Assembly (NCBI GenBank): GCA_942159475.1
Contig: OW804094.1
Location: 13,212,132-13,276,131, forward strand
Direction: 5' to 3'
Length of the DNA: 64,000 bases
From: Sthenelais limicola
Taxonomy: Eukaryota; Annelida; Polychaeta; Phyllodocida; Sigalionidae
The translations under genes were made by a program, and so were the position numbers. Shown one piece after another: positions 25,065 to 53,340 of this stretch; positions within the stretch are counted from its first letter, which is position 1, and each line of letters begins with the position of its first letter. The notes beneath the pieces are model-generated. The model saw only the letters and a program-made list of their open reading frames with translations, did not search any database and was not told the DNA's origin.

Positions 25065-26272
25065 GCTTTAAAGTACAGGTGGAGCTTTCCTGATGGTTCC
25101 ACGGAAGTTATACACAACGAGAAGTCGGTGGCTGATATATCGGATAAGTCATGCTGCCCTTTCACGACATTTGAGAAATTCTTTATTGAATTTATTGAGT
25201 GGCTGGGAAAGAACCATCCAGTCCGTAGAGCTTGGTAGAAACTGCACTGAGAAATGGCTTAGCTTGGGAGAACCCTTGAGTTCTAGCTGAACTAAGACTC
25301 CCCGGGAAGCTTGAATCAGCTCAGAAATTGGGTTGAAATTGCTATTAAAATCGGCTAAGTGGACAGTGGGCTTTATGGACAATGTATCCGCATTTGTCTC
25401 CGCGGAAGACCAGAGTAGGCTGCATACTTAAACATCCTTGTACGCCCTACAGTAGAGAACTAGAAATAGCTTTGTAACTGGCGGGAATCGGTGGCGCTGA
25501 GAGAGGTGGTGGTTTTGAGAACTACGGTTACCACGCTAGCCGTGGGAGCTGTGTTGCACCCTTTCACTCTGCTTCCGGATTCAGCCACAACAACAGCTAG
25601 CCTGCATATCGCCGACAGTGTTCCCTTGGAAAGAAGTGAGTTGAACTGGGTTAAAACTTGCTTGTCATATACTGTGTTGGTATCAATGTGAAAATTGAGA
25701 GTTGTCTGCTACTAGACCCGATATGTTGTAGTTTGTAAAACGTTTTGATTGTGCATGATGGAAGGAGAAAGTTCGGTGAAATGTTTGAGACGTCAGCCAT
25801 GACACCGGTGCTTTTTGAATGAATGGCGTACGAATGGGGGTGAAGCTATAGTGTTATGCGAGGCTCTATACACCACCAGTAACTGGTTGTTGCTAACCTA
25901 TAGAGTTCTTTAAAAGAATTCACCTTGAGAATTTGTTTTTTTGGGTAACTTCTAGGAAGAAGTTAGTCTGTGATATTTGGAATTTCGCTATTTATTTTAC
26001 TAGGCCTGTACTGTCTGTATGTAATACGGCGGGGAGGGTTTTTGTTATTTTGCTGTGATATTTGCTTTTCTGTTTCCTTCCTACCACCTATATGTAATAT
26101 AAGGAGTAGACGGAATGGTATTGTGATATATTGCATTGTTTTTGCTGTTTGTACTTGTAAACACTTTTTGTGTGGGGATAATTCCATCAGAGTCTGAGTG
26201 TTTTCCTTTTTCTTCTAGGAGAGAGGGAATTTTTAGTAAGACTGCCCTGAAGAATTGGAGACTAGCCACGTC
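25065..26272 (+). other. Non-coding spacer between pol and ORF3
   Basis: 1.2 kb inside the LTR element with no long frame. It ends in a strong splice acceptor: the pyrimidine tract TTTTCCTTTTTCTTCTAG with AG at 26217-26218, 54 bases before the ORF3 ATG. This suggests ORF3 is translated from a spliced subgenomic mRNA. The donor is not fixed; CAG/GTGAGG at 20650-20658 is one candidate. Confidence 0.6.
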
Positions 26273-28411
26273 ATGGATGTGGACGGATCCTCCGATCCGG
26301 AGACTTACGGAATGACAGAGGCAGAGGAGAGACGCCTCTTGGATGGCGCTGGGGATTTACTGGAGCTAAATCCGGCCAACGCGGACGAAGCTCAGCGTGC
26401 CCGGGCTGTTCAAGCTGAGGCTTCTGCCAAAGATGAAGCCATAGACACTCGCCCCCTTGGTAGGGAGATGACGCCTCTCCGTGATAACCAGGTTTTTGGA
26501 GAAGATTCCGGACAAGATGTTCCGGGCAAGCCTACTCCTGTCCCTAGGCGACGTAGTCTGCGCAAGTCCGTGTCTCCACGGAAGTCCGCCAAGTCCGTGG
26601 ACAAGGAAAATACAGAGAAACGTCGTTCCTCTCCATCCCCTGTTCCACGTCGCCGTTCTAGTCGCGGAAGAAGTCCTGGGTTCCGTCATACCACCAGCGG
26701 CCCCATGACAGTCTCCAAAGATGGAGAAGATACCTCTGCTAGTGCTGCTAAGCAGGGAGAAAAGAAAAGATGTAGAATCAAGAAAAGGCATTATCATCGT
26801 GCAGAACAACGCCGGATTCAACTATCTAGATGTGGGAACATGGATGCCTTTCGTAAGGCTTTAGATTCAGCGACAGAGATTGTGCCCATAGATCCAACGT
26901 CGGACCAGCCGGGGTCTGAGGTACGAATTTGTCCGGAGTCGGATTCGGAGGAAAGAGAAGTTCCGGATGACGGGCAAATGGCCCGGTACGAGTCCCGGAT
27001 TTGGCCTGAACTTGTCCGGAGGGACTCAATGGATCCCGGCACTCACCAAAAAGTGATAGAGGCACATCGACTTTGGCAACCAGGCCATCGCTGTCCGTTT
27101 TTGGTCTGTCGGTATGTACCTTTCAATCTGGGTGGGATCCGGGCGTTTTCCACCAGAGAAAGGCTGTTTCGCCACCTATGCGAGGAGCATGCCCCATTCA
27201 TGTGGGTGTGGATCTGTCCATCCTCCTGTTGTGCTCAAGTCTTGGATAGGAGGGTGGAGCTTATTCAGCACCTCATGAATGGGGAAGAGGTGCAGCACCA
27301 CTTGACCAGAAGTGAAGCGCGTGAAAAGGCCATGAAGGTGATGCCCTCTGTGCGTCCCAACCACGCTTTCCAGAAAATGGCTTATATGGCTGGACAGCAT
27401 TTACGTATCATGAGGCGCACCACCACTACCAAAAAGATTCCAAAGAAAGGCAAGTCTGACAGGGACCAGTCAGTCGAACGGGAGTCAGTTCTGGGTCGAT
27501 CCTACTCCTCTTCCAGAGCTGCAGCTTCCGCGGGAAGTAGTAAGTCTGTTGCTACGGACGCGGACGGGTCCTCGACTTGTTCCTCCCGCCGGAAGAGAGA
27601 CAGATCTCACTCTCTGGATAAGAATGTAGTGGAAGCAGCTCCTCTCTCGAAAAGGGCTTGTCGCCGTGCCAGAGAGTGGTCCAGTGAGATTTTGAAGAAC
27701 ATTCCCTCTGAGGAAGAGAACCGGACATTGATTGAGCGAGCCAAAACAGTAGTCGATGGGGCTCTGAGTGAAGTTGTGTCCGCCGCTGACAAAGTCACTT
27801 CGGTGGTTGACTCGGCCAAGAAAGATCTGGTCGCCCTGTTGGATGAGGTAACTCAGCCCTTGTTGGTTCTGTCGGACGTCAAGGCCTCAGTGGAGAATTT
27901 GAGTGAGATGAGGGAGGACACCAAAAATCAAGAAGGTGTCGTCTCTGGGCTAAGGAAGTCCCTTGCCTCCAGTGATGCCAGAATCCGCCACCTTGAGGAA
28001 GAAAACTTACGACTTCGCTCTATGTTGGACCAGGAATCATCCTCTCCATCGGAGTCCGTGTGTCTTCCGCCTTCCCAAGCAGCGCCTGTCGTCTTACCTC
28101 CTGCTGCTCCTGCATCTGCAGCACAAGTTCCTGCCATGCCATTGGATGCCGGACAACTGCCTCAATTGCTGATGCTCAGCAATTTGCTGAGATCCCTTCA
28201 GCAAACTCCTGTGTCAGTTCCTCCTCCCCAGACCGCTGTGGTCCCACCTGTCCGGACCCCGGGGCGTGACACTCAGGACCCCGGTTTATACACCATTCCT
28301 AACTGGCTGTTTAGTCCGACCACTTTGACCAACCCGGACAACATTCCAGCCAACACGGGAAACCCGGAACAGCTGAGCAATAAGACGGATGGGGATGCAC
28401 CAATGGAATGA
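26273..28411 (+). CDS. ORF3, accessory protein of the LTR element, function unknown
   Basis: 712 codons from ATG 26273; the frame is open six codons earlier but only with a TTG. I do not recognise the family. The N-terminal third is acidic, then rich in Ser-Pro-Arg (VPRRRSSRGRSPG) with a basic nuclear-localisation-like stretch (KKRCRIKKRHYHRAEQRR). Residues about 272-340 hold two Cys/His clusters: CPFLVC..HLCEEH, then CPSSCC..HLM. They are plausible zinc fingers with unusual spacing. About 500-590 is heptad-rich, ending in IRHLEEENLRLRSML, a probable coiled coil. The C-terminus is Pro/Ala/Gln-rich. There is no signal peptide or membrane segment, so despite its env-like position it is not an envelope protein. 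The base composition matches gag and pol, which argues that it is a genuine part of the element. Confidence 0.88.
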   Translation: MDVDGSSDPETYGMTEAEERRLLDGAGDLLELNPANADEAQRARAVQAEASAKDEAIDTRPLGREMTPLRDNQVFGEDSGQDVPGKPTPVPRRRSLRKSVSPRKSAKSVDKENTEKRRSSPSPVPRRRSSRGRSPGFRHTTSGPMTVSKDGEDTSASAAKQGEKKRCRIKKRHYHRAEQRRIQLSRCGNMDAFRKALDSATEIVPIDPTSDQPGSEVRICPESDSEEREVPDDGQMARYESRIWPELVRRDSMDPGTHQKVIEAHRLWQPGHRCPFLVCRYVPFNLGGIRAFSTRERLFRHLCEEHAPFMWVWICPSSCCAQVLDRRVELIQHLMNGEEVQHHLTRSEAREKAMKVMPSVRPNHAFQKMAYMAGQHLRIMRRTTTTKKIPKKGKSDRDQSVERESVLGRSYSSSRAAASAGSSKSVATDADGSSTCSSRRKRDRSHSLDKNVVEAAPLSKRACRRAREWSSEILKNIPSEEENRTLIERAKTVVDGALSEVVSAADKVTSVVDSAKKDLVALLDEVTQPLLVLSDVKASVENLSEMREDTKNQEGVVSGLRKSLASSDARIRHLEEENLRLRSMLDQESSSPSESVCLPPSQAAPVVLPPAAPASAAQVPAMPLDAGQLPQLLMLSNLLRSLQQTPVSVPPPQTAVVPPVRTPGRDTQDPGLYTIPNWLFSPTTLTNPDNIPANTGNPEQLSNKTDGDAPME

Positions 28412-32295: not shown

Positions 32296-32520
32296 ATGTA
32301 CAATGTGGAACATGAAGAAGTTCCGGTCGTGACTACAGTAATTAGTAGAAACACGGCACTCATCATTGCATTAAGAGGAACTACAGTTAATAGTAGTACC
32401 TATGTTAAGGTAGAAGGATCTCATGTCATTAGATCAAAAAAGGTATTCTGTTTGAAACAAAAAAATCCAGTGAGTAAATTGGTATGCTTGCTAAGTACAA
32501 CAAGCTTTTCTAATGGATAA
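32296..32520 (+). CDS. Short upstream ORF of the LINE, probable ORF1 remnant
   Basis: 74 codons beginning six bases after the upstream target duplication and ending in TAA within ATGGATAA, so its last 8 bases overlap the ORF2 start. This stop-start overlap is the arrangement used for coupled ORF1/ORF2 translation in several LINEs. No zinc knuckle or RRM is visible. The frame is open to the element edge, so the ATG may be an internal methionine of a truncated ORF1. It could also be chance. Confidence 0.45.
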   Translation: MYNVEHEEVPVVTTVISRNTALIIALRGTTVNSSTYVKVEGSHVIRSKKVFCLKQKNPVSKLVCLLSTTSFSNG

Positions 32521-35428
32521 TGATAATGACGATGTAAAAATATTCAAGAGCCTTAAAGGGCTCAAGGTCGTATCTTGGAATGTGAGAAGTCTGATACCTA
32601 AGTTTGATCAGATAAAACACTTTATTATCGAATGTAATCCCCAAATCGTTTTATTACAAGAAACGTGGTTGAATAGTAAGATATTGCCGGCCCATATTGG
32701 AATTCAAAATTACCAGACTATCAGAAATGATAGAACATTAATAAAAAGAGGGGGAGGATTAATAGCATATATACACTCATCCATTGCGGTGGAGGAGGAC
32801 AAATATGTCAATCTATGTAAATCTACTAAAGACATTGAACTGCAAGTTTTTGAAATCTCCAGGGAGTTTATGAAAAGTAAAATAATTCTTAATGTTTATA
32901 GGAGACCTCAAGGAAACCTAAAAGAAGCGCTGGATTTACTAGATGACAAGTTGAATGAAATAGATACGACAAAGGAAGTGATTATAATGGGGGATTTCAA
33001 TTATGAGGCATCTGACATAGAAGGGGGGAAATCAATAGGGGCTGAAAGGTTTAAAGTGTTGCTGTATAAATTTAACTTACAACAGGTTATCAATGTTAAA
33101 ACGAGGATCAGCAAGTCTTCCGCCACCTCCATTGACCACGCATACACTAACTGTAATATTATAAATGGTAGCGGGACGCTTAATGTAAACGTGAGTGATC
33201 ACCTGCCAATATATATCCAGATAAAAAAAGCAAGAAATAGTTATCATACTGAATCATTTAAAGCAAGGAATACAAAATGCCTTGATGTGAAAATCCTTAA
33301 AGAAATCCTACAAAATTTAGATTGGTCTGACTTTTACAAAATAGAGGAGGTGGAGGCGGCGTGGGAAGTGCTGATGTCGTACATCATCAAATATGTGGAT
33401 AGGATGTGCCCGATAAAATATTTTAATAGAGTTAGAAGGTTACCAGAATGGTATGATAAACAAATTATACAACATTCTAAAGAGAGAGATAAGGCGTTCG
33501 CAAGGGCAAAGCGTACTAATAAGGATGAGGACTGGGTAGTGGCTCGAAACTTGAGATTCCAATTTAATAAGGAAATTAAGAAAGCAAAAAACAACTACAT
33601 AAGAACACAAATTAAAGAAAATAGAGGAAACCCCAACAAGTTCTGGGATATAATAAAACCTCTAATGTCACCGGATAAGGTGGCTAATAAAGGAGATAAA
33701 ATTAAACTTAACTCTCCAGAAGGTATAAAACTTGAAGGGAAAGATATATCAGATGAGTTTAATAAATTTTTTGTTAATATTGGGCCACAGTTGGCCAAGG
33801 TTATTGACAAGAAACTAGGGAATGACACTAATTCAGACCCCATATCACATACTCTAACTGATACAACCCCTGAAAAAATCTTCTCACTTTCTGAGATCAC
33901 TTGGACACAAGTGGAATCAGCAGTAAGGAAGGTTGGTAATAACAAAGCCTCGGGAATTGAGCTACTCCCAACCAAAATTCTCAAGCCATGCATGATAGCC
34001 CTCTCCGAACAATTTGCGTTTCTTTATAACTTATCTATTAAGACATCGTCGATACCCTGTGACTTCAAAAATGCTACAGTCACTCCATTGTATAAAGATG
34101 GTGCTAGAGGTACCCCTGGGAATTACCGTCCCATCTCGTGTATAAAGCTCCCAGCAAAAATCTTGGAAAGCTGTGTCCAACAGCAACTATCGTCATATCT
34201 AGAGGACAATGAGTTCCTTAGTGAGGGTCAGTATGGTTTTAGGAAAGGGACATCGATAGTGGACGCCCATGATCATTTATTAGAAAATGTTTATAACGAT
34301 CTTAACAATAAAAAAGCCGTGGACCTTATATTTTTAGATTTCCGTAAAGCTTTTGATACGGTTAACCACGAGCTTCTTCTCCACAAATTACAAGATTATG
34401 GCGTCACTGATGATTCTCTAAATTGGTTTAAAAATTATTTAGAAAATAGAACACAAAGAGTACTTGCTAATGGCATACTCTCTTCCCCTCGAGGGGTGAC
34501 CTGTGGTGTACCACAGGGGACCTCTCTTGGACCACTAATGTTCCTAATTTATATAAATGATCTAAGTAATGTTGTTAAGGATAGCTCAGTTCAATTATTT
34601 GCTGACGACACGGTTTTATTTAAAAGTAGGGACTTAAAGGAGCAAGATGGTTCGGTATTACAGGGAGATCTAGACAATATTATTAACTGGTGCAACTGTA
34701 ATAAGATATCATTGAATATAAAAAAGTGCAAGTCATTGTGTATAAGTACAAAACCTAAGTTAACAAAAAACATTAGGTACTTTATTGAAGGATCTGAACT
34801 AGAAAATGTGAACTTTTATAAATATCTCGGGATAGAACTTGACAGTAATCTTAACTTTAAAAAATTCCTTGAAAGGAAGTCAAATGTTATCAGACCTAAA
34901 GTTAGGGCCTTTTCTAAACTATATGGTTTATGTGATCAAAAAACTATGACCCTTTTATATAAAACGATGATTCTCCCCCACATCGACTACGGGGATGTCT
35001 TTTATGACTCTGCCCCGCAAGTATATTTGCAAAAGTTACAAGCTTTGCAAAATTCATGCTTTAAAATCATATTAAAATTACCCAAGCTAACGAGTACAAA
35101 AGACATACATGTCAAATTGAATACTCCTTCTTTAACCACAAGGAGAGAAAAACACATATTAGAAAGGGCCCATAGTAGATCACTGAACGAATCTTATGTA
35201 GATAGGAAAGGAGTCAACTTAAGGAGACTAGCCCACGGAAAGAAATTGAAGGTCCCGCTTCCTAATAACGAGACTTTCAAGAAATCTTATCTATATAAAA
35301 TGGCTACGTTGTGGAATAATCTACCTGACAAGAAACAAATCGTTCCATTTAAAGAGTTTAGGTATTACTTAAAGCATATTTATCACCAAGACTTTGATAC
35401 ATTTTTCAACGATACACCTCAAAAATAA
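32513..35428 (+). CDS. LINE ORF2: apurinic-type endonuclease and reverse transcriptase
   Basis: 971 codons from ATG 32513, uninterrupted. Residues about 18-235 form an endonuclease/exonuclease/phosphatase domain with VVSWNVRSL, LLQETWL, MGDFN (about 160) and VSDHLP (about 228); these carry the metal-binding and catalytic residues. Residues about 500-770 form the reverse transcriptase with GNYRPIS, GFRKGTS, FLDFRKAFDTV, GVPQGTSLGPLMF and the FADD active site near 696. The C-terminus has the LQNSCFK and LWNNLP blocks common in Jockey/CR1-like elements, and no RNase H. The enzyme nicks genomic DNA and copies element RNA at the nick. No stops or missing catalytic residues are visible, so the protein may be functional. 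The exact clade is not resolved. Confidence 0.97.
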   Translation: MDNDNDDVKIFKSLKGLKVVSWNVRSLIPKFDQIKHFIIECNPQIVLLQETWLNSKILPAHIGIQNYQTIRNDRTLIKRGGGLIAYIHSSIAVEEDKYVNLCKSTKDIELQVFEISREFMKSKIILNVYRRPQGNLKEALDLLDDKLNEIDTTKEVIIMGDFNYEASDIEGGKSIGAERFKVLLYKFNLQQVINVKTRISKSSATSIDHAYTNCNIINGSGTLNVNVSDHLPIYIQIKKARNSYHTESFKARNTKCLDVKILKEILQNLDWSDFYKIEEVEAAWEVLMSYIIKYVDRMCPIKYFNRVRRLPEWYDKQIIQHSKERDKAFARAKRTNKDEDWVVARNLRFQFNKEIKKAKNNYIRTQIKENRGNPNKFWDIIKPLMSPDKVANKGDKIKLNSPEGIKLEGKDISDEFNKFFVNIGPQLAKVIDKKLGNDTNSDPISHTLTDTTPEKIFSLSEITWTQVESAVRKVGNNKASGIELLPTKILKPCMIALSEQFAFLYNLSIKTSSIPCDFKNATVTPLYKDGARGTPGNYRPISCIKLPAKILESCVQQQLSSYLEDNEFLSEGQYGFRKGTSIVDAHDHLLENVYNDLNNKKAVDLIFLDFRKAFDTVNHELLLHKLQDYGVTDDSLNWFKNYLENRTQRVLANGILSSPRGVTCGVPQGTSLGPLMFLIYINDLSNVVKDSSVQLFADDTVLFKSRDLKEQDGSVLQGDLDNIINWCNCNKISLNIKKCKSLCISTKPKLTKNIRYFIEGSELENVNFYKYLGIELDSNLNFKKFLERKSNVIRPKVRAFSKLYGLCDQKTMTLLYKTMILPHIDYGDVFYDSAPQVYLQKLQALQNSCFKIILKLPKLTSTKDIHVKLNTPSLTTRREKHILERAHSRSLNESYVDRKGVNLRRLAHGKKLKVPLPNNETFKKSYLYKMATLWNNLPDKKQIVPFKEFRYYLKHIYHQDFDTFFNDTPQK

Positions 35429-37918: not shown

Positions 37919-38259
37919 TATATATCCAGTACTAGCTCATAGAGACTTAGCTCCCTTATTTTTCAGGGAAGTGCATTAATCACATCCCTCGTGCGCCGCC
38001 CTTCCCCATGCTTCACCGCAGACAGAGATAAGGATGGTTCAAGTATCAGTTGGGCTCGTTCCAACAATGTTTGAATGGAAACATGAATTAGTGCCTGTTG
38101 ACTCCATACATACTCCATACATATTACTCCTTATATAGTTCCATTTCCATAGCTTGTTATTTTAATTTTTAAAGTTGGTACTTTTTCATATAAATCTTCT
38201 ATGGCTAGAATTGTTCTATGCCCAACACATTTTCTAAATTTTATAAGTAAGTTACCAAC
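37919..38259. other. Intergenic, no feature recognised
   Basis: Short unique stretch before the T-rich array; contains a tandem CTCCATACATA pair near 38102-38122. Confidence 0.4.
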
Positions 38260-38703
38260 TATTTTTTAACGACAATTTTTTATTCGACCAACTTTTTTTC
38301 AACCAACTTTTTTTTTTACGACCAACTTTTTTTTACGACTAACTTTATTTTCCGACCATTTTTTTTTACGACCAACTATTTTTTTTACAACCAAATGCTT
38401 TTTTACGACCAACTTTTTTTAACGATAATTTTTTTCCTAACGACAATTTTTCCCGACCAACTTTTTTTCAACCAACTTTTTTTTTTTACGACCAACTTTT
38501 TTTTACGACTAACTTTATTTTACGACCATTTTTTTTTACGACCAACTATTTTTTTTACAACCAAATGCTTTTTTACGACCAACTTTTTTTAACGATAATT
38601 TTTTTCCTAACGACAATTTTTCCCGACCAACTATTTTTTTAACGACAATTTTTTCCCGACCAACTTTTTTTCAACCAACTTTTTTTTAAGGACAATTTTT
38701 TTC
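38260..38703 (+). repeat. T-rich tandem array (ACGACCAACTTTTTTTT-type)
   Basis: A degenerate 17-20 bp unit is organised into a 169-bp higher-order repeat (CAACCAAC at 38300 and 38469 starts matching blocks). Open frames rich in Phe and Leu here are compositional. Confidence 0.93.
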
Positions 38704-39274
38704 CGAAGTAATTGAGCCTGAGAAATCGTTTCCATTGGAAACGCCATGTATATAAATTAAGTTGACACTAATTGTAATATTAAATAGATAAACCAAACTT
38801 AACTTGATAATTTCTTAACTTATTACTTGTTTTTCATCTGCCTTGTGTTGTATAAGCTTAGGAAGGAAAATTATATAAGACAAGACAGGGGTTGGAAGAA
38901 GGGAGACAGGGACTAAATCTGCTATTACGTTGCTTGGACGTTGTATTAATCAATGTCTGTCTGGTTAAACTTAAATTGGATAATTAAAGTTTATATTTAC
39001 AGAGGTAAATTTCTAGTTTCTATGTGAATATGGCCACAGTCAATCATTATTATTGAAATAAGCTCATAGTAAGATTGTTGTTATGATATTGGGCATTTTA
39101 TTAGGAGAGATCATGACACATAAAACATAAAACAAGTTGCTTTTTGTACATGATATTCAGAAGCGCAATATTAGACCTCTTCATTAGTGGGTCAGTTCTA
39201 CAATCCATACATAGTTCCAGAACATCAATTACTGGGGAAAGAAAGTCATAGAAGCTCATGTTTGTCAAGTGGTG
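38704..39274. other. Intergenic, no feature recognised
   Basis: No gene seen. The end adjoins the LINE fragment and may be decayed element sequence. Confidence 0.4.
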
Positions 39275-39667
39275 TCATCTAAATCCACCCTGCGATCGAC
39301 TAAATAGGTCATTTAGCTCCATATGATTAACCACAGCTGTACAAATAATTTTTTCTAAAATTTTTGACAATGTAGGCACAATCGCAATGGGTTGTAAGTT
39401 GTTAAATAGTCGTAAATTCCCATCTTTGGGTATAGGCTTAATAGTGTATTCCTTCCACTCGAAGGGCATTATACCTGTTGCAATACAGCATTTCATAAGC
39501 AGGGTAATCTGGGACACAAATAGTTTGAGGAATATTTTTAGGGCCTTCGTATTAATCCAACTGAATCCACAGTTCTTATTAGTATCAATGCTATCAATCA
39601 GAACTACAATTTCCTTCTCAGTAATAAGTGTTCTAGTAGACAGGTTTGTTTCCCGAACAATTTCCAA
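39275..39667 (-). pseudogene. LINE reverse-transcriptase fragment
   Basis: The minus-strand frame encodes a typical N-terminal RT segment of a non-LTR element: a SIDTNKNCGFSWINTK block, then EWKEYTIKPIPKDG, NLQPIAIVPTLSKILEKII and finally RSQGGFR, where a TGA interrupts. The palm domain with FADD is absent downstream. It differs clearly from the LINE at 32.3 kb, so it is a remnant of a second family. Confident as RT-derived; the clade is not assigned. Confidence 0.8.
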
Positions 39668-40000
39668 ATACTTGCTGAAATGATTCGAACATATACATTT
39701 TTTTTTCGCAAATTTGTTTATTCAGGAAATTATTACAAAACTATAGCACGCTCACCCGTAGGTGAATTTTCGTTGTGCCCTGATAAATTTTAAGTTATTG
39801 TTAAACATATATAGAGAGAGGGCATGAGTTATTATACAACAATACATATAAAGCATACATTCGATTCATACAAGATCACAAGAATAATGATCAGTTGATG
39901 AGATGAATGAAATATGAGTGAAGGGTGAAAAGAGTTCCTGTCTATTTGATAACATTACATTTTAAATAGAGGTGTGAGAGTTATGGTGATCTCTGAACAT
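39668..40000. other. Intergenic, no feature recognised
   Basis: Sequence between the RT fragment and the satellite; no gene seen. Confidence 0.4.
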
Positions 40001-42209
40001 ATATACAATATGAACTTGTTACATATACAATTACATACAACATAAGTAAATTACGAACGGACGGTTGGACATAGAGGGTTAACACAGTTTCGAGTTTTAA
40101 CCACATCTATTAGGTCAGAAACAATGTACAAACAGCAAACAAGGTTGGCCCAGGTGGGCGCGTTGTGTGAGGATATAATCCAGGGTACAATACAGTGTAC
40201 TATATACAGTACTCGCACGTGGGGCGGGTCGGGTCAGTATCATACTAATAGCAATCAACAGGTATACATTACTTGGTACTCCATAAGTGAAGGTCTAAGG
40301 ACCTCGTGACATTTGGTCATATATACAATATGAACTTGTTACATATACAATTACATACAACATAAGTAAATTACGAACGGACGGTTGGACATAGAGGGTT
40401 AACACAGTTTCGAGTTTTAACCACATCTATTAGGTCAGAAACAATGTACAAACAGCAAACAAGGTTGGCCCAGGTGGGCGCGTTGTGTGAGGATATAATC
40501 CAGGGTACAATACAGTGGGCGGGTCGGGTCAGTATCATACTAATAGCAATCAACAGGTATACATTACTTGGTACTCCATAAGTGATGTGTAAGCGCGTTG
40601 TGTGAGGATATAATCCAGGGTACAATACAGTGGGCGGGTCGGGTCAGTATCATACTAATAGCAATCAACAGGTATACATTACTTGGTACTCCATAAGTGA
40701 AGGTCTAACACAGTTTCGAGTTTTAACCACATCTATTAGGTCAGAAACAATGTACAAACAGCAAACAAGGTTGGCCCAGGTGGGCGCGTTGTGTGAGGAT
40801 ATAATCCAGGGTACAATACAGTGGGCGGGTCGGGTCAGTATCATACTAATAGCAATCAACAAGTATACATTACTTGGTACTCCATAAGTGATGTGTAAGC
40901 GCGTTGTGTGAGGATATAATCCAGGGTACAATACAGTGGGCGGGTCGGGTCAGTATCATACTAATAGCAATCAACAGGTATACATTACTTGGTACTCCAT
41001 AAGTGAAGGTCTAAGGACCTCGTGACATTTGGTCATATATACAATATGAACTTGTTACATATACAATTACATACAACATAAGTAAATTACGAACGGACGG
41101 TTGGACATAGAGGGTTAACACAGTTTCGAGTTTTAACCACATCTATTAGGTCAGAAACAATGTACAAACAGCAAACAAGGTTGGCCCAGGTGGGCGCGTT
41201 GTGTGAGGATATAATCCAGGGTACAATACAGTGGGCGGGTCGGGTCAGTATCATACTAATAGCAATCAACAGGTATACATTACTTGGTACTCCATAAGTG
41301 AAGGTCTAACACAGTTTCGAGTTTTAACCACATCTATTAGGTCAGAAACAATGTACAAACAGCAAACAAGGTTGGCCCAGGTGGGCGCGTTGTGTGAGGA
41401 TATAATCCAGGGTACAATACAGTGGGCGGGTCGGGTCAGTATCATACTAATAGCAATCAACAGGTATACATTACTTGGTACTCCATAAGTGATGTGTAAG
41501 CGCGTTGTGTGAGGATATAATCCAGGGTACAATACAGTGGGCGGGTCGGGTCAGTATCATACTAATAGCAATCAACAGGTATACATTACTTGGTACTCCA
41601 TAAGTGAAGGTCTAACACAGTTTCGAGTTTTAACCACATCTATTAGGTCAGAAACAATGTACAAACAGCAAACAAGGTTGGCCCAGGTGGGCGCGTTGTG
41701 TGAGGATATAATCCAGGGTACAATACAGTGGGCGGGTCGGGTCAGTATCATACTAATAGCAATCAACAAGTATACATTACTTGGTACTCCATAAGTGATG
41801 TGTAAGCGCGTTGTGTGAGGATATAATCCAGGGTACAATACAGTGGGCGGGTCGGGTCAGTATCATACTAATAGCAATCAACAGGTATACATTACTTGGT
41901 ACTCCATAAGTGAAGGTCTAAGGACCTCGTGACATTTGGTCATATATACAATATGAACTTGTTACATATACAATTACATACAACATAAGTAAATAAGTAA
42001 TAAGGTCAGAAACAATGTACAAACAGCAAACAAGGTTGGCCCAGGTGGGCGCGTTGTGTGAGGATATAATCCAGGGTACAATACAGTGTACTATATACAG
42101 TACTCGCACGTGGGGCGGGTCGGGTCAGTATCATACTAATAGCAATCAACAGGTATACATTACTTGGTACTCCATAAGTGAAGGTCTAAGGACCTCGTGA
42201 CATTTGGTC
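40001..42209 (+). repeat. Higher-order satellite array, 2.2 kb
   Basis: Two building blocks alternate. One is a core of about 115 bp (CGCGTTGTGTGAGGATATAA to CTCCATAAGTGA). The other is a longer block that adds CACAGTTTCGAG through AACAAGGTTGGCCCAGG. Together they form a 306-bp higher-order unit, clearest between 41.31 and 41.92 kb. A third segment starting ATATACAATATGAACTTG occurs at 40001, 40321, 41037 and 41944. Copies are nearly identical, so the array is recent. A 22-24 bp insert with TACAGTACTCGCACG is present only in the first and last copies. The repeated 60-88 codon frames on both strands follow from the repeat. Confidence 0.97.
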
Positions 42210-42325
42210 TTCCGAGTATCGAGGTAGAGAGTAAAAACATGAGGAACGATAGGTAAAAACGCAGTAATCTCTTCTCTATCTGATTGAAATCAGCTACAAT
42301 GACCATACAGTATCATATATATATG

Positions 42326-42355
42326 TTGGTTGGGGGGGTGGGGGGTGGGGGGGTA
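42326..42355 (+). other. G-run cluster, possible G-quadruplex
   Basis: Three runs of 6-7 G separated by single T, after TTGGTT. It lies past the 3' end of the minus-strand gene, where its transcript would be C-rich. Confidence 0.6.
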
Positions 42356-42430
42356 ACTGACTCTGCAGTATCATAACTGGAGATGCAATAACAAAGACAT
42401 GGTTTGGCCATGAACTCAGCAAAAGCAGGG

Positions 42431-42436
42431 TTTATT
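42431..42436 (-). terminator. Candidate polyadenylation signal of the minus-strand gene
   Basis: AATAAA on the minus strand about 310 bases after the stop codon at 42748. No closer canonical signal was seen. Confidence 0.4.
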
Positions 42437-42747
42437 TTCACCAAACAGCCGAACCAAGACAGAAGTAATGGTTAAGTTTTTTCCAGGCATAGACAAATGA
42501 CCACTCCCCCCGAAGTTGGTCCATGGGAGAAGGGAAAGGTAAAAGTATACAGTAGCGGCAATGAATATTTCAATTCAGGAAAATGATACACCAAAGAAAG
42601 GATCTTTGGTAGCGAGAAGATTCTGCATATTAAATGGTTTGTGTGGGCATTTAGGTTGGTGTTGGTGTATTTTGACTTTCTTACTTCTTGAAGTTCCTCA
42701 ACAGTAATAAACAATTTTGATATGGGACATATTGGAATAGTACTTTT

Positions 42748-45700
42748 TTAAAATAATTTTTTTCTGGATTGTCCAGTGGGACCAGTGCATCCTCGCTTCC
42801 AAGCCCCATGACTTGTTCCTTTCTTTGGGGTATCATTTTCCTGAATTGAAATATTTTCCTGATAAGCTTCAGGTCCAAAGTCATAAACTATGTTTCCTCT
42901 TGAACCTATTGCAAAACATCCTGCCTCATCAAAATCGGGCAATTTTGCCTCATGCTCTCCAGCCGTCATCAGATATTGAATAACAAGATGTGTTAGCTTG
43001 CACATTGTTTTGATGCATGACAGGGGAGGGAGCCATTTGTCAGCACATCTCAATGCACCGCCCCTCTCGTACATGGTTTTGTGCCTTAAATGTGAAAATT
43101 CTAGATCCGATGTACCTTCCCGTGGGCTGTACAATTGTTTGATGAATTCGACATACACATTTTCATCCAACGTTAGTTTATCTGCGCTTTCACATCTGAT
43201 CAATTTATTTAAGAAATAGGGGGAAGATGTCAGTAATTTTAAGACCTTGCTGTGATTTCCAACGATATTATACTTTGGTAGGAAATCATTTCCTCCAATG
43301 CATAGACCAATAGCCACCTTAACTCCTATCCATCGATCTCTCGTCACTTCCTCTAAAACCTCTAATATGCCAGTGATATTGTAGCAATCGAACCTGTTGT
43401 ATGGTTTGGCCAATATGACATAAACAGCAGAGAGAAATTTTCCTTCCTCATCTCTTGGCCATTTTCTACTGATGAAGAAGAGATGGGCGACTACTGCATC
43501 TATGTCCCCCGATGTGACGATACTTAAAATAGGGGCTGATTCATAAGATCTTTCACCAACCGACATCACCCAGTCACATTGACTCATTTCCCCTTCTCCT
43601 TTTCTCTGCTTAATATCAAGGGCTTCCTTCTTAATGAATCCATCTTGGGCTGAGAATTTGTAGAGTAGAGGCACCGCATATTTTTCACAGTGTGGTAAAC
43701 AATGGTCTCTTTCACAGGTGCACCCCAACAAGTTCTTCTCGCTGTCAAATATGATGTCAACATTTTTCATGATCTTCAGTGATGGTATATTTTCAGCCAG
43801 GTAGTTACTGAGCAAGGTCTTTCCTTCGGTAGTTGTTGTTACCGCTTCCTTTGAAAATATACCATCACTGACAATTTCCTCACCTTCTTTTAGATGGGAC
43901 ACAGATGAAGAAATTTTTACCCTCTGTTGTCGGGTGTGCTCTTTGAGGATGTCTGGAGTAAAGCTATACTTCTCCTCGCACATCACTACCAACTTAAGGT
44001 TGGGAAATTGGTTCATGTAAGAACCCAGCACATTTTGCTGCACATGTTGCAGATAATGCACACCTGATGTTGTAGAAGTCTTTAACTTGTACTTTATCCC
44101 TGCCATTTCGAATACTGCAACTTCAAATAGGTTACGATCTTGGGGTAACAGCAAGCTCATCGGTTTGCTGAACATAATGAGTTCCTCATCATCGATGACA
44201 TTTCCAGTCTGTCTCTGTGATTTCAGGTATTCTAACAAGGCGGTTGGCATGGTCTGCGATTTTTGCACTTTCGGTTTTGAACAATCCGGATGGACCAAGG
44301 CCTGACATGCATTCATTCGGGAAGAGAGTCTATTGATTTTCTTTGATTCTTGGGAAACAACTTTCTGCCGTTTCTCTTCCTCCTTTTCTTCCCTGGATTT
44401 ATTAAGCTGCAAAGACATTTTCTTGATTGCTGCTCTGCGTATTGTGGTAGATTTTGATGAAAGGACTCTCCGTTTTAAATAGGCTGGGCCTTCTAATCTT
44501 TCTGAAGGAAGAAAGTCCATTTTGGTCAAGCCTAGTAGTCCCAGGTTGCAGGCAGTTCTATGCATGAGGTAGATTCCAGCTCCTGGAGCACTAACACAAT
44601 CCAATATAACAGGATCAAGATGGGTAGGATGTCGAGTATACACATTTTTCGGTATTTCATCAATGTGGGTAGAAAGAGCCTTTCGTCGAAGTATAACAGT
44701 TGCAGTTGGTATGATGTGTTTCCAATCTGTTTTGGACAATTGCCAACCAAGGTTATCTGTCTTTTCAGAGGTACCAACCTTGCCATCAGAAAATCCTTGG
44801 TGAATTTCATTAAATAGATCAACTAAAGCCATGCGCTTGCTGACACTCGCTGTTGTGGACCCAGATCTAAATCCCTTGAGTGCATCTAAATGATCCAACT
44901 CTCTCTTTGTGTCCCCAGAAAAATTAACTTGGCTTCCTGGTCGGGGAGTTGAAAATAAAGACATTTTCATGCACTGATGAAAATGACTGGCTTGGTAATG
45001 TTCCAGCAACAACTCCATGGTGAATGGTGCATATGCAACGGCACCATTAAGAAAGGAAAACAGCAAAGATGACTTAAGTGCAGACAAGAGCAGATTATAG
45101 CCATCCCTTCCACCCAAGCGCTCTGCAAGGGCTACTGCAACTACATCATCGAGGTGTTGCATTATCTCAAAATGCAGGCAAAATGTAGCATTGCTTGTAC
45201 AACCCTCTTTGATGAAAGAAGTGTACTTCTCATGCCATTTTTCGGCAGCAATGTAACTTTCTTGTTTCATATCTAACAAAATAGCAGATTGCATTTCACT
45301 GGGTAAACTTCGAATGAAGACTACTAAGAATGCTATATGGAAGCTGGCTGAAAGTCTCCTTATATGTTTGGTGGCAGTATCTATGTGTTCAGCAGAGAGG
45401 AGCTTCCGCCAATCGTCTTGTTCTTCATCTCGCATAAACTGAAGGAGTTGTAGGAGCCCAGTCTCTTTGTATGCAGTAAAGAGAATTGTTATTTTATGTT
45501 TACGCACATGAAGTAAGGGAAATTCTGCCAAGAAGACATCATACTTTGAATTTGAATTCTTCAAACGGAGCAGATTTTTACCAATTTTATGGTCAGGACC
45601 AAAAAGTATTTTTTCCTTTACTTGTGAATTGTCATGATACCCAAGTTTCAACAATACATCATCAAGGATCATTTTTAATTTATCAGGATCATCATCACGT

Positions 45701-46029
45701 CCAGTAGCAGGTGCTGGATGTCGGGTTAAGAGCTCAGGACATACAAACTTCTTAAATCCAAATTTCTCCGGCTGGCTAGTTGCTCTGCTGTCATTTGGAG
45801 AAGGTTCAGAAATTGTTTGATCATTTTCTGCTGGATTAACATCTGACTGCTGCAACACTTGGACTTCTGGATCATGGTATTGTTGAAGATCGTAGCCTTC
45901 CATGATGGCGGTAGAGAGTAACTCAGCAAGGTTGGGTTCATCGTCTACATCAGATTGTAGGGGAATGTCTGGTTCAAGGTGAGATGATTCATCCATACAC
46001 GGATCCCATAGCACATCCTCATGGTGGCC
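42748..46029 (-). CDS. Last exon: XPG/FEN-like nuclease region
   Basis: 1,093 codons after the acceptor TTCTTTTGTAG, opening GHHEDVLWDP. Residue numbers here count V of VLWDP as 1. Acidic, unstructured sequence fills about 1-80. The helical middle includes FGPDHKIGKNL and FPLLHVRKHKI (about 140-175) and GRDGYNLLLSALK (about 300). A charged KKMSLQLNKSREEKEEEKRQK stretch follows, then a Cys/His group CTCERDHCLPHC (about 760-771). The C-terminal part matches the FEN/XPG layout: KLVVMCEEKYSFTPDILK and HTRQQR resemble the N-region. GEGEM (806-810) corresponds to the E-x-E pair, SGDIDAVVAHL to D-x-D (837, 839), and IGGNDFLPK (906-914) to the G-x-D before the helix-hairpin-helix. In FEN1 these residues bind two metals and cut branched DNA. 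Substrate and activity here are inference. The N-region aspartates are less clear. Confidence 0.7.
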   Translation of the reverse strand, partial: GHHEDVLWDPCMDESSHLEPDIPLQSDVDDEPNLAELLSTAIMEGYDLQQYHDPEVQVLQQSDVNPAENDQTISEPSPNDSRATSQPEKFGFKKFVCPELLTRHPAPATGRDDDPDKLKMILDDVLLKLGYHDNSQVKEKILFGPDHKIGKNLLRLKNSNSKYDVFLAEFPLLHVRKHKITILFTAYKETGLLQLLQFMRDEEQDDWRKLLSAEHIDTATKHIRRLSASFHIAFLVVFIRSLPSEMQSAILLDMKQESYIAAEKWHEKYTSFIKEGCTSNATFCLHFEIMQHLDDVVAVALAERLGGRDGYNLLLSALKSSLLFSFLNGAVAYAPFTMELLLEHYQASHFHQCMKMSLFSTPRPGSQVNFSGDTKRELDHLDALKGFRSGSTTASVSKRMALVDLFNEIHQGFSDGKVGTSEKTDNLGWQLSKTDWKHIIPTATVILRRKALSTHIDEIPKNVYTRHPTHLDPVILDCVSAPGAGIYLMHRTACNLGLLGLTKMDFLPSERLEGPAYLKRRVLSSKSTTIRRAAIKKMSLQLNKSREEKEEEKRQKVVSQESKKINRLSSRMNACQALVHPDCSKPKVQKSQTMPTALLEYLKSQRQTGNVIDDEELIMFSKPMSLLLPQDRNLFEVAVFEMAGIKYKLKTSTTSGVHYLQHVQQNVLGSYMNQFPNLKLVVMCEEKYSFTPDILKEHTRQQRVKISSSVSHLKEGEEIVSDGIFSKEAVTTTTEGKTLLSNYLAENIPSLKIMKNVDIIFDSEKNLLGCTCERDHCLPHCEKYAVPLLYKFSAQDGFIKKEALDIKQRKGEGEMSQCDWVMSVGERSYESAPILSIVTSGDIDAVVAHLFFISRKWPRDEEGKFLSAVYVILAKPYNRFDCYNITGILEVLEEVTRDRWIGVKVAIGLCIGGNDFLPKYNIVGNHSKVLKLLTSSPYFLNKLIRCESADKLTLDENVYVEFIKQLYSPREGTSDLEFSHLRHKTMYERGGALRCADKWLPPLSCIKTMCKLTHLVIQYLMTAGEHEAKLPDFDEAGCFAIGSRGNIVYDFGPEAYQENISIQENDTPKKGTSHGAWKRGCTGPTGQSRKKLF

Positions 46030-49000
46030 CTACAAAAGAATAATTGTGCATATACAAATCTATAATACAATTTTAATTTCAAGACATATGCACCCCTGTG
46101 TGTTTATCATATGCACCCCTGCATTATCATGTCCATCCCAATTTCCTGCCATATTCTTGTTACCAATCCTCATCAAAATAATTGTGAAATATATTTGATC
46201 GGTATATTTGATTGACAATACTGTGATAATGCACACTTTAAAATAGCTAGTAGGTTTTATTGCAGCCTATATTACTACCCATCTACTGCTTTCAGGGCTG
46301 GTGATCAACTTGCCTCCTAACTTTTCTTAAATGTTTAGTGTCAATACTCTGTATGATATTGACATGTAGAAATGAAAGAATGTCACAACCACTGAAAGTA
46401 ATGTGATTAGGCCCAATGAGAAAAAGCATTATTCAAGACTTACATGTTGTGTTAGTGGTGACATCATATTGAAAACTAACGGACGCAAAGGATGCTGCTC
46501 TGTGTTGGATGTTGCAGGAGTACTTTCTATGTCTAAAAATATATATACATTCGTTATGATTGGACAATCTACTAGAAATAGAATGTGGACATTGTTGCAG
46601 GCACAATAGCATATTGTAGTTGCCTTTGAATTAGAGGTTGGTCCTTAACTTTAGAAAATGATGAATTACCAGAATGCAATTTCCTTGCTGATAGAGGAGT
46701 TTTCTGTAAGGTGCTTATGAATTGCATATCCTGTAGCGAAGTAGAGGTGCTAGCAAGTCCTGGCGATTGGCACAAACCTGCAAGAGTGATATGAAGGAAG
46801 ATCAGAATTAAGTGTCTGGAAATGTCAAAGGCTGTGAATACATAATAACAGCATGATGTTTATTGACAACATTAAGTGAATATGATATATAATATACATG
46901 TATATATATAAACAGGAAGTGGGAGCGAATATTACAGGATTATAGGAATACAGTATTTTAGACTCCACTTAAAAAGAACTAAAATACATTTTAACATAAT
47001 TTACCTCCTTCTTGGACAGCACCTTGGGAAGTGCATGGTGTCTTCTGTAGGTTATCGATATGAGCAGTTGGAGTGGGTGAACTTCTGTCATCAGTCTTTG
47101 ACAGTGAAGGAGACCCTGTGGAAATACAAATACCTCTAAACATTTTGTAATGATTGGTCACTGATATAAATAACTTTTAGCCACCTATTTTTGAATTTAG
47201 AAATGGGTTTGACATCTTTAGCAAAGGCATACTCACGAGTGCAAAGAAATGGATGTGCTGAAGCTAGAGTTTTATCCCTGGTTTCTTGCTCATCAGATGA
47301 CTGTTCATCATCTTCATGATTATCTTCATGCAGGAAGTTCTCTTTAAATTGTAACAAAAATTTGTTAAATAAGGCCTGTAGTATACCATAGTTTGAGAAA
47401 AGCTTTAATTAAGATGTTGTCTGTTACAATTGAATGGCATCTGTACTAAAATATTTATTGTTTTCTTATTTGAAAAATATAGATCTGGATTATGGTACAG
47501 TTAGCTTAATTATGCTATAATTATGAGAAATGAACTAATGTACTTACTTAATTGAAAGAACAAAGAAGGTAACCCCCATGTACTCAATCTTGCAAAACGT
47601 TGGGATGCTTCTTCCTCCTCTGGTAATAGTGTAACCATTAGTGGGACTAGTTCTTCTTTCGGAATAGGGGTTGCTTCCTTGCAATCACAATTGATTTCAA
47701 CAAAACAGTCTGACTGATGCCATGATCCAACTTCATCTGAATCATGTGGAAGGCCCTGCAGTGTTATAGGGAGTGTGTTCATCTGCTTTGATCTACACTC
47801 TCCAGGGTCAGGATCTTCCTTGAACTTTAAGCGAACCAGATTGTCCATCATCAAGATGATCATGCATTGCCGCAGATTCACATGAATTGTGTCACATGAT
47901 CCATGCCTCTGAACTGATATTGGATACTGTTTCACATATGCATTGAAATAGAGCAATTCATCGATAGTTCTAGAGTCAAGAAACCGCTTGGCTGATGCGA
48001 GGCTCATGGAAACTCCAGAACTGGAAGCAACATGAAATACTGTGTTAATAGTCTTCGAATGCATAATGAGTTCCAAGGTATTAGCCTTTTGGATGATGCC
48101 AGTATGTCTGTAATTAAAGATATGGAGCATAGTGTCATAAAGAATGTAAAGCTTCTTCAATTTTGTCTGAATCACATTCTTCCTTTCAGGTCCAGTCATA
48201 TGTGTAGCATTGAGTGCTGACTCCATGATTATTTGAACATTTAGCGGAACATCTGTCAGCCATTCTCTGAAAAGATCAAATGAATTAAAGTCAAGAGGTT
48301 TTGGTGCATTTGATGGAAAGCAGCTCAAACATTGATGGCCAGTGGAATCCTCTTGCTGAGAACATTCATCCGTATTTTCTAGGACATATTCTTGTACTGG
48401 AGTTACAATGCCACTGAGAATATCATCACACAGAATATGACGTGCATAATTTTGGAGCTCCTGTCGGTAGAACTGTTTGGATGTGCCTCTGTTAAGAACA
48501 AGGACGTTAGCACAATCAAGCTTATGCACTCTATTCAAACAAGAATGTACTACAGAATGGATCTGATGTAACAATTCTGGGTGATGTATTTGCTCCTCAA
48601 TGGAAATAGTTACACTATTCAAACTTGCATTTGGGAGAACAATAGCACTGTCTGAAATAATGTGAGGAAAGTATAACTGGAGCTCATTCCTGATGCTGTG
48701 GTCCAACTTTTCATATGAATGCACGAAAGATCCTTGCATCGTCAAGTTGGAAATGTTTGTGGCTGTCGTAACCCTCTCCCTTCTTGATTTTATTACTTTT
48801 TTGTTGGTTGCTGATAATGAGGCAGCAATTTCTTTGCATTTAACTAGGGTATCAAAATATTCCGTCCTCTTACTCAGTTCCTTGGCATAGTTTGGAAATG
48901 GATCCTGACCATATTCCTTGCCAAAATGGTGCTCAAAGAACACAATGCTGGCCCATTCTTTCTGCGAAAAATTTTCCCTGTGCACTTCATAAGCTGTTGG

Positions 49001-49482
49001 CACCGATTTCTCATCCAGGGGCATCTCCCCATATGCCTGTAGGAGAACTTCATCTTGGAACATGTAAGATGCAACTTTTTGGTACAGTTGCAAAATTGTT
49101 TTTGTTGGTTCAGGCTCTTTTTCATGATTGTCTTCATTGGGGAGTGTATCGCAAGATGCATTGTATAGAATCGATACAATTTCTTTTGTTAGCCTACTGC
49201 ATACTGAAACTCTTGCAGCATATTTGAATAGAAATTGTACTATTGACGAAGCTGAGCAATATTTCCTGCCATCATCCTCATGTGTAACAAATGGAGTGTA
49301 ATTCTTCATACCAGATTCCACATTGTCCTTTCGAAGGGTGACAGAATCTCTCTTAGAAAAGTTAGCAGATAGGAAATTCCAAAATGCATCAAACTGTACA
49401 ATTGAACCATACACTGCATGTTCTCTCACAGATAACTCCCCATAATGTTTTTTCAGGAAGCACATGTTGTATGAACTGCCAT
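42748..49482 (-). CDS. Large six-exon gene with C-terminal XPG/FEN-like nuclease domain, 5' end incomplete
   Basis: Reading splice sites on the minus strand joins six exons without breaking frame: 49482-47548, 47341-47237, 47115-47005, 46777-46670, 46526-46444 and 46029-42748. All introns begin GT (GTAAGT, GTGAGT, GTAAAT, GTAATT, GTAAGT) and end AG. The phases are 1,1,1,1,0 and each split codon is completed correctly. From the ATG at 49465 this gives 1,868 codons plus stop. The first listed exon is preceded by the acceptor TTTCTTTTCCAG, with the frame open through it. So either translation starts at 49465 with a 5' UTR exon upstream, or coding exons are missing. The function is unknown overall. 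The last exon carries a nuclease signature; the rest resembles large multicopy invertebrate proteins, some perhaps derived from transposases. Intact splicing and a long frame argue against a pseudogene. Confidence 0.75.
46444..47341 (-). CDS. Four short internal exons of the nuclease gene
   Basis: Exons of 105, 111, 108 and 83 bp (47341-47237, 47115-47005, 46777-46670, 46526-46444). They encode a low-complexity Ser/Thr/Pro/Glu-rich linker: HEDNHEDDEQSSDEQETRDK, then SPSLSKTDDRSSPTPTAH, LASTSTSLQDMQ and TSNTEQHPLRPL. Each is too short to stand out as a frame but has a pyrimidine-rich acceptor and a good donor. They connect the two large exons, likely as a flexible hinge. Alternative splicing is possible because three of the four are multiples of three. 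Confidence 0.7.
47548..49482 (-). CDS. First large exon of the nuclease gene, N-terminal domain unrecognised
   Basis: 1,935 bp, starting after TTCTTTTCCAG and ending at a GTAAGT donor. First methionine at 49465 (MCFLKKHYGELSVREHAVYG). The protein is mostly helical and soluble-looking, with no signal peptide or membrane span. Recognisable blocks are KSRRERVTTATN (basic), CLSCFPSNAPKPLDF, SSGVSMSLASAKRFLD, MMDNLVRLKFKEDPD and CFVEINCDCKEATP (a Cys cluster). The SSGVSMSLASAKRFLD and MMDNLVRLKF pair resembles blocks I associate with DUF6589-type invertebrate proteins, but this is a memory-based impression, not a match. No RNase H or DDE triad could be fixed by eye. The frame at 49510-47548 end runs on into the intron for 12 codons, which is not coding. 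Confidence 0.7.
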
Positions 49483-51559
49483 CTGGAAAAGAAATGTATA
49501 TTGTTCGTGTTCGAAATCCCGTAGATTATAGTGTTTGGAATTTATGTGTCAACCAAAATAGAAAAAGTTATTATCATGTTGTTCGAGGTGCTGCACCCTT
49601 CACCCACCCCCGTTTTATTGATCCGCTTGAGTCCTCAAATTTACAAACTTAAGGTCTTTATTTTGAGAGACCCTTGAAAGGGTCTCCATTTCCCTTTTTG
49701 AATACCATTTTTGAGACGATCTCATAACTATTTGAATAAAGCAATAAGGCAGTTACCAATTGATATCATAAAGGTAGAGAAGGGTGCAAACACCTACAGA
49801 CACCTGTAATATTTTTCAGCAAAAACACTTTACTTGACATGTTGATAGAAAGCAAGGAAAATTAATAAACTTAGGAAACTTAATATAAATAAGGAAAATT
49901 GACATGCATTCCTATGCCCTTCTGAGTGAGGGGGCACAAGGACCCATTATAGGGGGTTCTAGGTTGGGGGGGGGAGACTACCTACACTGGCATTTTGCCT
50001 CCCTTCTCCCCCTACTCTCTCTGTCTCCCTCTATTCCAACACCCCCCACCATCTGCTTACCTCCTCACCTAATCTCAATCCCTCTTCTCTCACACCTTTT
50101 TTCCTAACCCCACCCTCTCAACCTTCTTGCCTCCCTACCTCCCCTACCTTCCAACATCTCTTTTCTCACCACCACCCCCACACACACACACTCTCCCTCT
50201 CCTCCTACCCCTCCGTTCGCCTCCCATATCCACCCTCTCTCTCTGCTGTCCCACTCAACTACCTCTCTTCCTCTCCCCTCTATTTCCCTCGCTCACCCCT
50301 CTGCTCTCCTCTCCCCCTATACCTCTCTTCCTCTTCGCTCTATTTCCTTGCTCTACCCCTCCCTTCACCTCCCGTATCCCTTCCTCTCTCTCCTTTCCCA
50401 CTCACCTACCTCTCTTCCTCTCCCCTCTATTTCCCTCGCTACCCCCTCTGCTCTCCTCTCCCCTATACCTCTCTTCCTCTTCCCTCTATTTCCTTGCTCT
50501 ACCCCTCCCTTCACCTCCCGTATCCCTTCCTCTCTCCTTTCCCACTCACCTACCTCTCTTCCTCTCCCCTCTTATTTCCCTCCCTCTCTCCTCTATTTCC
50601 CTCCTCTTCCTCTGCTCTACCCCTCCTATATCCCCCTCTTTCTCTGCTGTCCCACTCAACTACCTCTCTTCCTCTCCCCTCTATTTCCCTCGCTCCCCCC
50701 TCTGCTCTCCTCTCCCCCTATACCTCTCTTCCTCTTCCCTCTATTTCCTTGCTCTACCCCTCCCTTCACCTCCTATATCCCTTCCTCTCTCTCCTTTCCC
50801 ACTCACCTACCTCTCTTCCTCTCCCCTCTATTTCCCTCGCTCCCCCCTCTGCTCTCCTCTCCCCCTATACCTCTCTTCCTCTTCCCTCTATTTCCTTGCT
50901 CTACCCCTCCCTTCACCTCCCGTATCCCTTCCTCTCTCTCCTTTCCCACTCACCTACCTCTCTTCCTCTCCCCTCTATTTCCCTCGCTCCCCCCTCTGCT
51001 CTCCTCTCCCCTATACCTCTCTTCCTCTTCCCTCTATTTCCTTGCTCTACCCCTCCCTTCACCTCCCGTATCCCTTCCTCTCTCCTTTCCCACTCACCTA
51101 CCTCTCTTCCTCTCCCCTCTTATTTCCCTCCCTCTCTCCTCTATTTCCCTCCTCTTCCTCTGCTCTACCCCTCCTATATCCCCCTCTTTCTCTGCTGTCC
51201 CACTCAACTACCTCTCTTCCTCTCCTCTATTTCTCTGCTCTACCCCTCCCTTCATCTCCCATATACCTTCCTCTTTCTGCTACTCATTGCTACTGCTATA
51301 CAACTCCCAACTCAATCCTACCTTGGAGTAATATCATAGATCCTACCTACCCTCTCTCTAACTTCTAAGCATACCCTGTTACTAGTGTACATGGTGTACA
51401 TGCATTACCAATTAACCAACATCTAACATACTTTGATACTACAATCTAAGGATATGTAGTTTTTCCCCCATGCCTTGTTTAGACATCCCAAAAGTAGCCT
51501 AAGCACCAGTACTATCATGTACTATTAATAAATAAATCATAACTAAGTCTTACACTTAC
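49483..51559 (-). other. Probable 2.1-kb intron of the nuclease gene
   Basis: Lies between a consensus donor (CAG/GTAAGT, exon end 51560) and the acceptor at 49483. It contains the pyrimidine-rich minisatellite. Joining the donor in phase 1 gives EVYKILADGSSYNM across the junction, but an upstream TGA lies nine codons before, so the upstream exon may be mostly 5' UTR. Confidence 0.5.
50020..51260 (+). repeat. CT-rich minisatellite, about 145-bp units
   Basis: Almost pure C/T on the plus strand. TTTCCCACTCACCTACC-type starts near 50397, 50541, 50798, 50945 and 51090 show 144-147 bp spacing. A 549-bp higher-order block is repeated (50541 and 51090; 50651 and 51199). A CT-only sequence cannot form stop codons, so all three plus-strand frames stay open for 280-410 codons of Pro/Ser/Leu. 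These are artefacts. Confidence 0.95.
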
Positions 51560-51700
51560 CTGCCAATATCTTGTATACTTCAGTAATAAGCTTTCTTCAT
51601 ATAAGTCTTGACTATAAGACCTGCTTGTATCCTGTGCCTCTCTCTCTGTGTGCTATGAATGAGTAGCTCAGAGTGAAACAGGCCTTGTGTTGAGGCCAAC
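51560..51700 (-). other. Candidate upstream exon of the nuclease gene (end only defined)
   Basis: The minus strand reads GATATTGGCAG/GTAAGT at 51560/51559, a perfect donor consensus. The exon start is not determined; 51700 is only a nominal limit. Probably 5' UTR or the first coding codons. Confidence 0.4.
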
Positions 51701-51893
51701 AGAGGCCTGTTAAAACGATTAGCATGACCTCGAGGGGGTCTTATCTGAGGTCTGACCCGGTCTGACATTTTTACGACCGTCGTCCTCGCGGAACGTCCAT
51801 GTATGAGCTCTGACTGTATCCTCCAGACCATGCCTTTCTTGTACCGTTGTAATAGCTGCGAATAAAACTTTCGCCATGCGATCTTTTCTATAA

Positions 51894-52926: not shown

Positions 52927-53340
52927 TATGTGATGTGTTTCAGGAAAATGAGTCATAAATCGCAAAAAATAGATTTTGAGATATCATTATATTTGAAGAG
53001 ATGAGATCAAGCCGATTCCAATGGTAGTAAACACTAATAATCTAATAAGTATTTCTAGATTTTAAGTTTGATATTTTCATTTTTGAAAAAAAAAAGGTTT
53101 CCACTATTTCTCGGGGGCAATAAACAGTAATAACTCAATATACTCCATATGAGGACCTTTAAAACAAAAGGATATATTACATAGATTTTACTGAAATTTG
53201 ATACATCGATTGATATAGTTATAAGTGATAAATCCTCTAAAAACTAGAACCTTCCAACAACGTGATCTTGTGAAAAAAATACTTTGAAAAATACCAATTT
53301 TGCGCCTTGTGACTCAATTCCCTGAAACACATCGCATATG
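52927..53340. mobile_element. Family 2 element
   Basis: ATGTGATGTGTTTCAGGAAA to CCCTGAAACACATCGCATAT. The open frame beginning at 53300 starts inside its terminus and is not a gene. Confidence 0.92.

Follow-up and report, generated by a model that had tools for sequence, protein, structure and literature searches.

What kind of gene occupies positions 42748..49482 of a 64,000-nucleotide stretch of the Sthenelais limicola genome (assembly GCA_942159475.1, contig OW804094.1, positions 13,212,132 to 13,276,131), hereafter the window? An earlier note, made from the letters alone, had described an unusual spliced gene of 1,868+ residues, beginning at 49482 and ending in a FEN/XPG-like nuclease, and had put it forward as an undescribed system. 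Our analysis indicates that it is very probably the principal gene of an autonomous DNA transposon, for which the AcademX lineage of the Academ superfamily is the most likely placement.

To define the protein, the gene was rebuilt from its splice sites. Six exons joined in frame, as had been claimed, with phases 1, 1, 1, 1 and 0, all five introns were of the GT..AG type, and the product had a single terminal stop. The long spliced gene was therefore upheld; its product has 1,870 residues, and its start codon is likely the ATG at 49465, slightly downstream of the proposed position, because the alignment of relatives begins there. All five introns lie within a poorly conserved acidic linker, and exons 2 to 5 are modelled from splice sites and phase only, not from homology or RNA. 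The protein searches scored only part of their candidates, and the counts of relatives refer to the candidates scored. They returned 62 relatives for exon 6 and 13 for exon 1, and a profile of the transposase-containing relatives gave 42. Relatives of 1,749 to 1,902 residues covered both large exons, and 12 long predicted proteins aligned along the whole window protein (identity, 30.6 to 37.1%). Four of the five closest exon-6 relatives (P0001 to P0004, not P0005) had an exon-1 relative on an equally long contig. The relatives of both large exons, together with the 12 alignments over the entire protein, place the gene far beyond chance, and a chance open frame was therefore rejected. Relatives with a named organism were molluscs, save one bacterial bin. 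Two predicted proteins of Mytilus coruscus, P0062 and P0079, named KIF21 and UBE2D, include the transposon protein and are probably gene-prediction fusions. The C-terminal end of the window protein is unlike the TPQKG..TSTP tail of its relatives. In addition, 42564-42602 is an inverted partial copy of the 3' coding end at 42817-42855 (39 nt, 97%), and matches to this duplicate were also seen in the genomic copies C1, C3 and C4 described below.

The limits of the mobile unit were revealed only by comparison of copies. Inverted-repeat searches close to the gene gave nothing convincing, because the ends of the element lie kilobases outside the gene and its repeats are short and imperfect. The window element was compared with three copies (C1, C3 and C4), each 97 to 98% identical to it over the longest aligned stretch. 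Collinear homology ended at about 51,820 in all three; the 3' end could be followed in two of them, and in both it ended at about 37,925. Perfect 4-bp duplications flanked the element, GATA in the window (coding orientation), GACA in C1 and TCTA in C3. The suspected link to a large transposon was thus borne out by a unit with terminal repeats, 4-bp duplications and near-identical copies; the extent given at first, 42748..49482, holds a real gene, but the mobile unit is larger (37,927-51,816). Within the element are tandem repeats of 306 bp (40,400-41,921) and CT-rich repeats (50,205-51,268), which other copies share at least in part. At 39223-39225, all three other copies were longer than the window copy by 820 to 835 bp, and at 38213-38219, both copies measured were longer by 660 to 780 bp. 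A minus-strand frame at 39275-39721 resembled by eye a piece of a long interspersed nuclear element (LINE) reverse transcriptase and had no Pfam match. Since 39223-39699, which holds most of this frame, was common to all three other copies at 97 to 99%, the LINE-like piece was probably inside the transposon before the copies dispersed. Beyond the 5' end of the element, window positions 52,928-53,339 matched the copy loci at 68 to 81% and noncollinearly, which we read as another dispersed repeat.

The 1.13-Gb host assembly was then searched with exon 6, and 42 of 79 candidates were scored. At least 51 matches were found, 11 of which, including that in the window, were free of stops over 960 residues or more. 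A sister subfamily (B), about 46% identical to the window element in its last exon, was represented by copies of 7,958, 7,960 and 9,722 bp, the longest having an extra stretch of 1,759 bp. These copies were 99.6 to 99.8% identical over the long stretches compared and had open frames, CACT.. ends alike at 15 of 20 bases, and target duplications of TATC, TAAT and ATCA. Sister-subfamily loci were noted at C7:107048102, C7:117301031, C3:57397283 and C8:21002; a copy on C6 resembled the B copies at no more than about 75%. Judged from these identities, the sister subfamily was apparently active very recently. With the two subfamilies taken together, a 4-bp target duplication was found in all six copies with both ends read, a count that omits two copies read at one end, C4 (5' end) and C8 (3' end).

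Next, the domains of the protein were examined. Predicted models showed a DDE transposase domain of the RNase-H type with a helical insertion. The best transposase fold match was the P element (PDB 6p5a), and in the predicted model of P0082 a beta strand ends at the first catalytic Asp. Neither the exons nor the 12 aligned members matched any Pfam transposase family. The C/DxxH motif, a mark of the hAT/P/MuDR/Kolobok/Dada group according to PMC9587614, had no corresponding majority columns between the second Asp and the Glu in 49 aligned rows.

For the C-terminal domain, modelling confirmed the predicted FEN/XPG-superfamily (PIN/FEN) fold with an acidic cluster. The ordered acidic motifs reported earlier were in the stated order (E1418, E1462/E1463, E1589, E1591, D1619, D1621 and D1692) and were invariant in all 13 full-length proteins, that of the window included. 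The supposed kinship with FEN1 and XPG held for the superfamily fold; XRN exonucleases and XPG are about equally near to the domain. XRN2 was the top Foldseek match and XRN2, XRN1 and Rat1 filled the first five rows; the aligned length was 334 residues with XRN1 versus 267 with EXO1, and the Z scores of EXO1, XPG and FEN1 were equal to or above that of XRN. Against four XRNs, hhalign gave a P of 0.0014 over 55 columns only, with the GGNDFLP stretch aligned to Xrn1, and nothing in global mode; against a thin set of three archaeal FENs, it detected no profile similarity (P 0.17). A PDB profile search with a whole alignment returned only the chaperone IpgC (E 0.04 to 0.12). No FEN/XPG or XRN Pfam family was found in the exons or the 12 aligned members, a viral fold library gave no match (all E above 1), and scans of viral contig and genome contig collections yielded no relatives.

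Upstream of the transposase core, we found the fold of the C-terminal subdomain of ANL enzymes of the DIP2/FAAL type. In a Pfam scan of 22 domain fragments, PF24919 was matched in 3 (best E, 2.4e-5) and PF23024 in 5 (best E, 0.0035), every score shown being below the curated cutoff; unrelated families also appeared at E 0.016 to 0.26, and they alone were matched by the fragment of the window protein. A PDB profile search with the whole alignment (A1) gave weak FAAL matches (E 0.095 to 0.76) plus unrelated ones, and the FAAL matches fall where the ANL domain was later placed. Unlike in DIP2/FAAL proteins, the domain is fused to a transposase; the conserved SGK lysine was not found in it, and no Pfam adenylating N-domain was matched in the exons or the 12 aligned members. 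The usual catalytic Lys motif is missing, and our best guess is that the domain serves binding or assembly. The DUF6589 family, also suggested at first, was rejected, since neither the exons nor the 12 members matched its Pfam model at E 1. The positions of all features are given in Table 1.

Table 1. Positions in the window of the transposon, its ends, exons and protein domains
Feature	Position	Strand	Remarks
Whole DNA transposon copy, 13,890 bp	37927..51816	minus	Collinear homology between copies; ends and duplications verified
Target-site duplication TATC, left	37923..37926	plus	
Target-site duplication TATC, right	51817..51820	plus	
5' terminal inverted repeat CAGTCAGAGCTCATAC	51801..51816	minus	12/16 bases match 3' repeat
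3' terminal inverted repeat CAGTACTAGCTCATAG	37927..37942	plus	
Exon 1	47548..49465	minus	N-terminal region, ANL-type domain, first catalytic Asp of transposase
Exon 2	47237..47341	minus	Linker; from splice sites and phase
Exon 3	47005..47115	minus	Linker; from splice sites and phase
Exon 4	46670..46777	minus	Linker; from splice sites and phase
Exon 5	46444..46532	minus	Linker; from splice sites and phase
Exon 6	42748..46029	minus	Remaining transposase and nuclease, including stop
DIP2/FAAL-like ANL C-terminal domain	48404..48784	minus	Protein residues about 228-354
Transposase catalytic D1 (D541, MDNLVR)	47843..47845	minus	13/13 full-length proteins
Transposase catalytic D2 (D923, FGPDHK)	45592..45594	minus	46/49 rows, remaining 3 gapped
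Transposase catalytic E (E1154, TKRELDH)	44899..44901	minus	49/49 rows
FEN/EXO1/XPG/XRN-fold nuclease	42886..44262	minus	Exon-6 residues 590-1048; protein residues 1367-1825

How should the element be classified? According to PMC10045372, AcademX elements have an accessory nuclease beside the DDE transposase and make 3- or 4-bp duplications, and AcademH elements carry a helicase instead of the nuclease and have 9- or 10-bp duplications; its author ties the difference in duplication length to nuclease versus helicase. The window element has a DDD/E transposase (by the model, the P element match and the invariant D, D and E), encodes a nuclease, shows no helicase family in Pfam scans of the exons and the 12 members, and belongs to a family whose target duplication is 4 bp in 6/6 copies with both ends read. 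Membership in Academ, AcademX lineage, is accordingly likely, an assignment made by published traits. A separate, still unnamed superfamily with a P-element-like DDE domain, in which a FEN/XRN nuclease was gained independently of Academ, is unlikely. It would suit the P element as best fold match and the lack of a Pfam transposase match, and Academ is known here by described traits rather than by reference sequences; yet the paired AcademX traits, nuclease and 3- to 4-bp duplication, are both present, and the C/DxxH of the hAT/P/MuDR/Kolobok/Dada group is absent between D2 and E.

That the gene is an immobile host gene, a domesticated transposase or repair nuclease, is very improbable. The window copy does have an open frame of 1,870 residues in the spliced gene model, but it is located in a unit with inverted repeats and a target duplication, the same unit has target duplications at other loci, and other copies are near identical to it, as are the sister-subfamily copies to one another. 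Moreover, three M. galloprovincialis proteins share 33 to 39% identity and five M. coruscus proteins share 29 to 55%, with one pair at 87%. The host gene was rejected on the terminal repeats, target duplications and near-identical copies at other loci. It is unlikely, too, that the nuclease part, instead of being a DNA flap nuclease, degrades RNA as a 5'-3' exonuclease of the XRN type, a possibility slightly better placed than the separate superfamily. The Foldseek order, the longer alignment with XRN1 and the GGNDFLP stretch point that way, whereas EXO1, XPG and FEN1 do at least as well in Z score and the nuclease sits beside a DNA transposase.

For an AcademX transposon, the following mechanism can be proposed. 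The transposase would bind the terminal repeats, and its DDE domain would cut the element out and join it to the target at a stagger of 4 bp. The fused nuclease, of the 5' flap or 5'-3' type by fold, may trim 5' single-stranded flaps or ends of the non-transferred strand; alternatively, it may process the donor site. We give even chances to a fuller proposal, that of a widespread animal lineage with a three-module transposase, in which a DDE core is joined to a 5' nuclease nearer XRN than XPG, acting in the same polypeptide on the non-transferred strand, and to an ANL C-terminal domain of the DIP2/FAAL type, degenerate and of a kind new to DNA transposases.

The window protein belongs to a kind of element already known, and the claim of an undescribed system falls because AcademX was already reported with a nuclease and 3- to 4-bp duplications. 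Among the matches listed for Academ with XPG/FEN1, for DUF6589 and for transposase with FAAL/DIP2, there was no relevant paper, which does not rule out one in print. New here are the ANL-type domain in a transposase, a metabolic-enzyme domain otherwise seen in fatty-acid-activating enzymes and reused, and a set of recently multiplied copies. The B copies of 7.96 kb, near identical and with defined ends and open frames, hold transposase and flap/exonuclease in one polypeptide, so that the link between enzyme and duplication length proposed in PMC10045372 becomes testable.

Other elements were also seen on the plus strand of the window. Frames of a long terminal repeat (LTR) retrotransposon, which we label Ty3/Gypsy type, lie at 18184-25064 (zinc knuckle, 18184-20466; protease, reverse transcriptase, RNase H and integrase, 20391-25064). 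Behind it is a 723-residue open frame (26240-28411) without a Pfam match at E 0.001, and at 32495-35428 there is a 977-residue frame of LINE type that includes an endonuclease and a reverse transcriptase.

Compared with FEN1, EXO1, XPG, GEN1, XRN1 and XRN2, the window nuclease has the same fold and ordered acidic residues; in our reading Glu replaces the first Asp, and a Cys-containing insertion is peculiar to the window domain. In FEN1, EXO1, XPG and GEN1 the nuclease N-region stands at the protein start, whereas the window domain follows about 1,360 residues and begins at residue about 1,367, an architecture unlike theirs, as the earlier note had held. The P element transposase (PDB 6p5a) differs by its C/DxxH motif, not found in the window family. 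It is not known to have a nuclease or ANL domain. KolobokD, KolobokE and KolobokP are, like the window element, DDE transposons with an added nuclease, but the nuclease types differ, and KolobokP has long terminal direct repeats (PMC9587614). AcademH shares the superfamily, and its helicase and 9- to 10-bp duplications were not seen here. Academ elements were amplified in bivalves, with a mean curated length of 5,565 bp (PMC10294476); the named relatives of the window element are also molluscs, while the element itself, at 13,890 bp, is longer than that mean. AcademX, known here by description, is the closest counterpart: an animal DNA transposon with a DDD/E transposase, a nuclease and 3- to 4-bp duplications. 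The window element carries a DIP2/FAAL-like domain as well.
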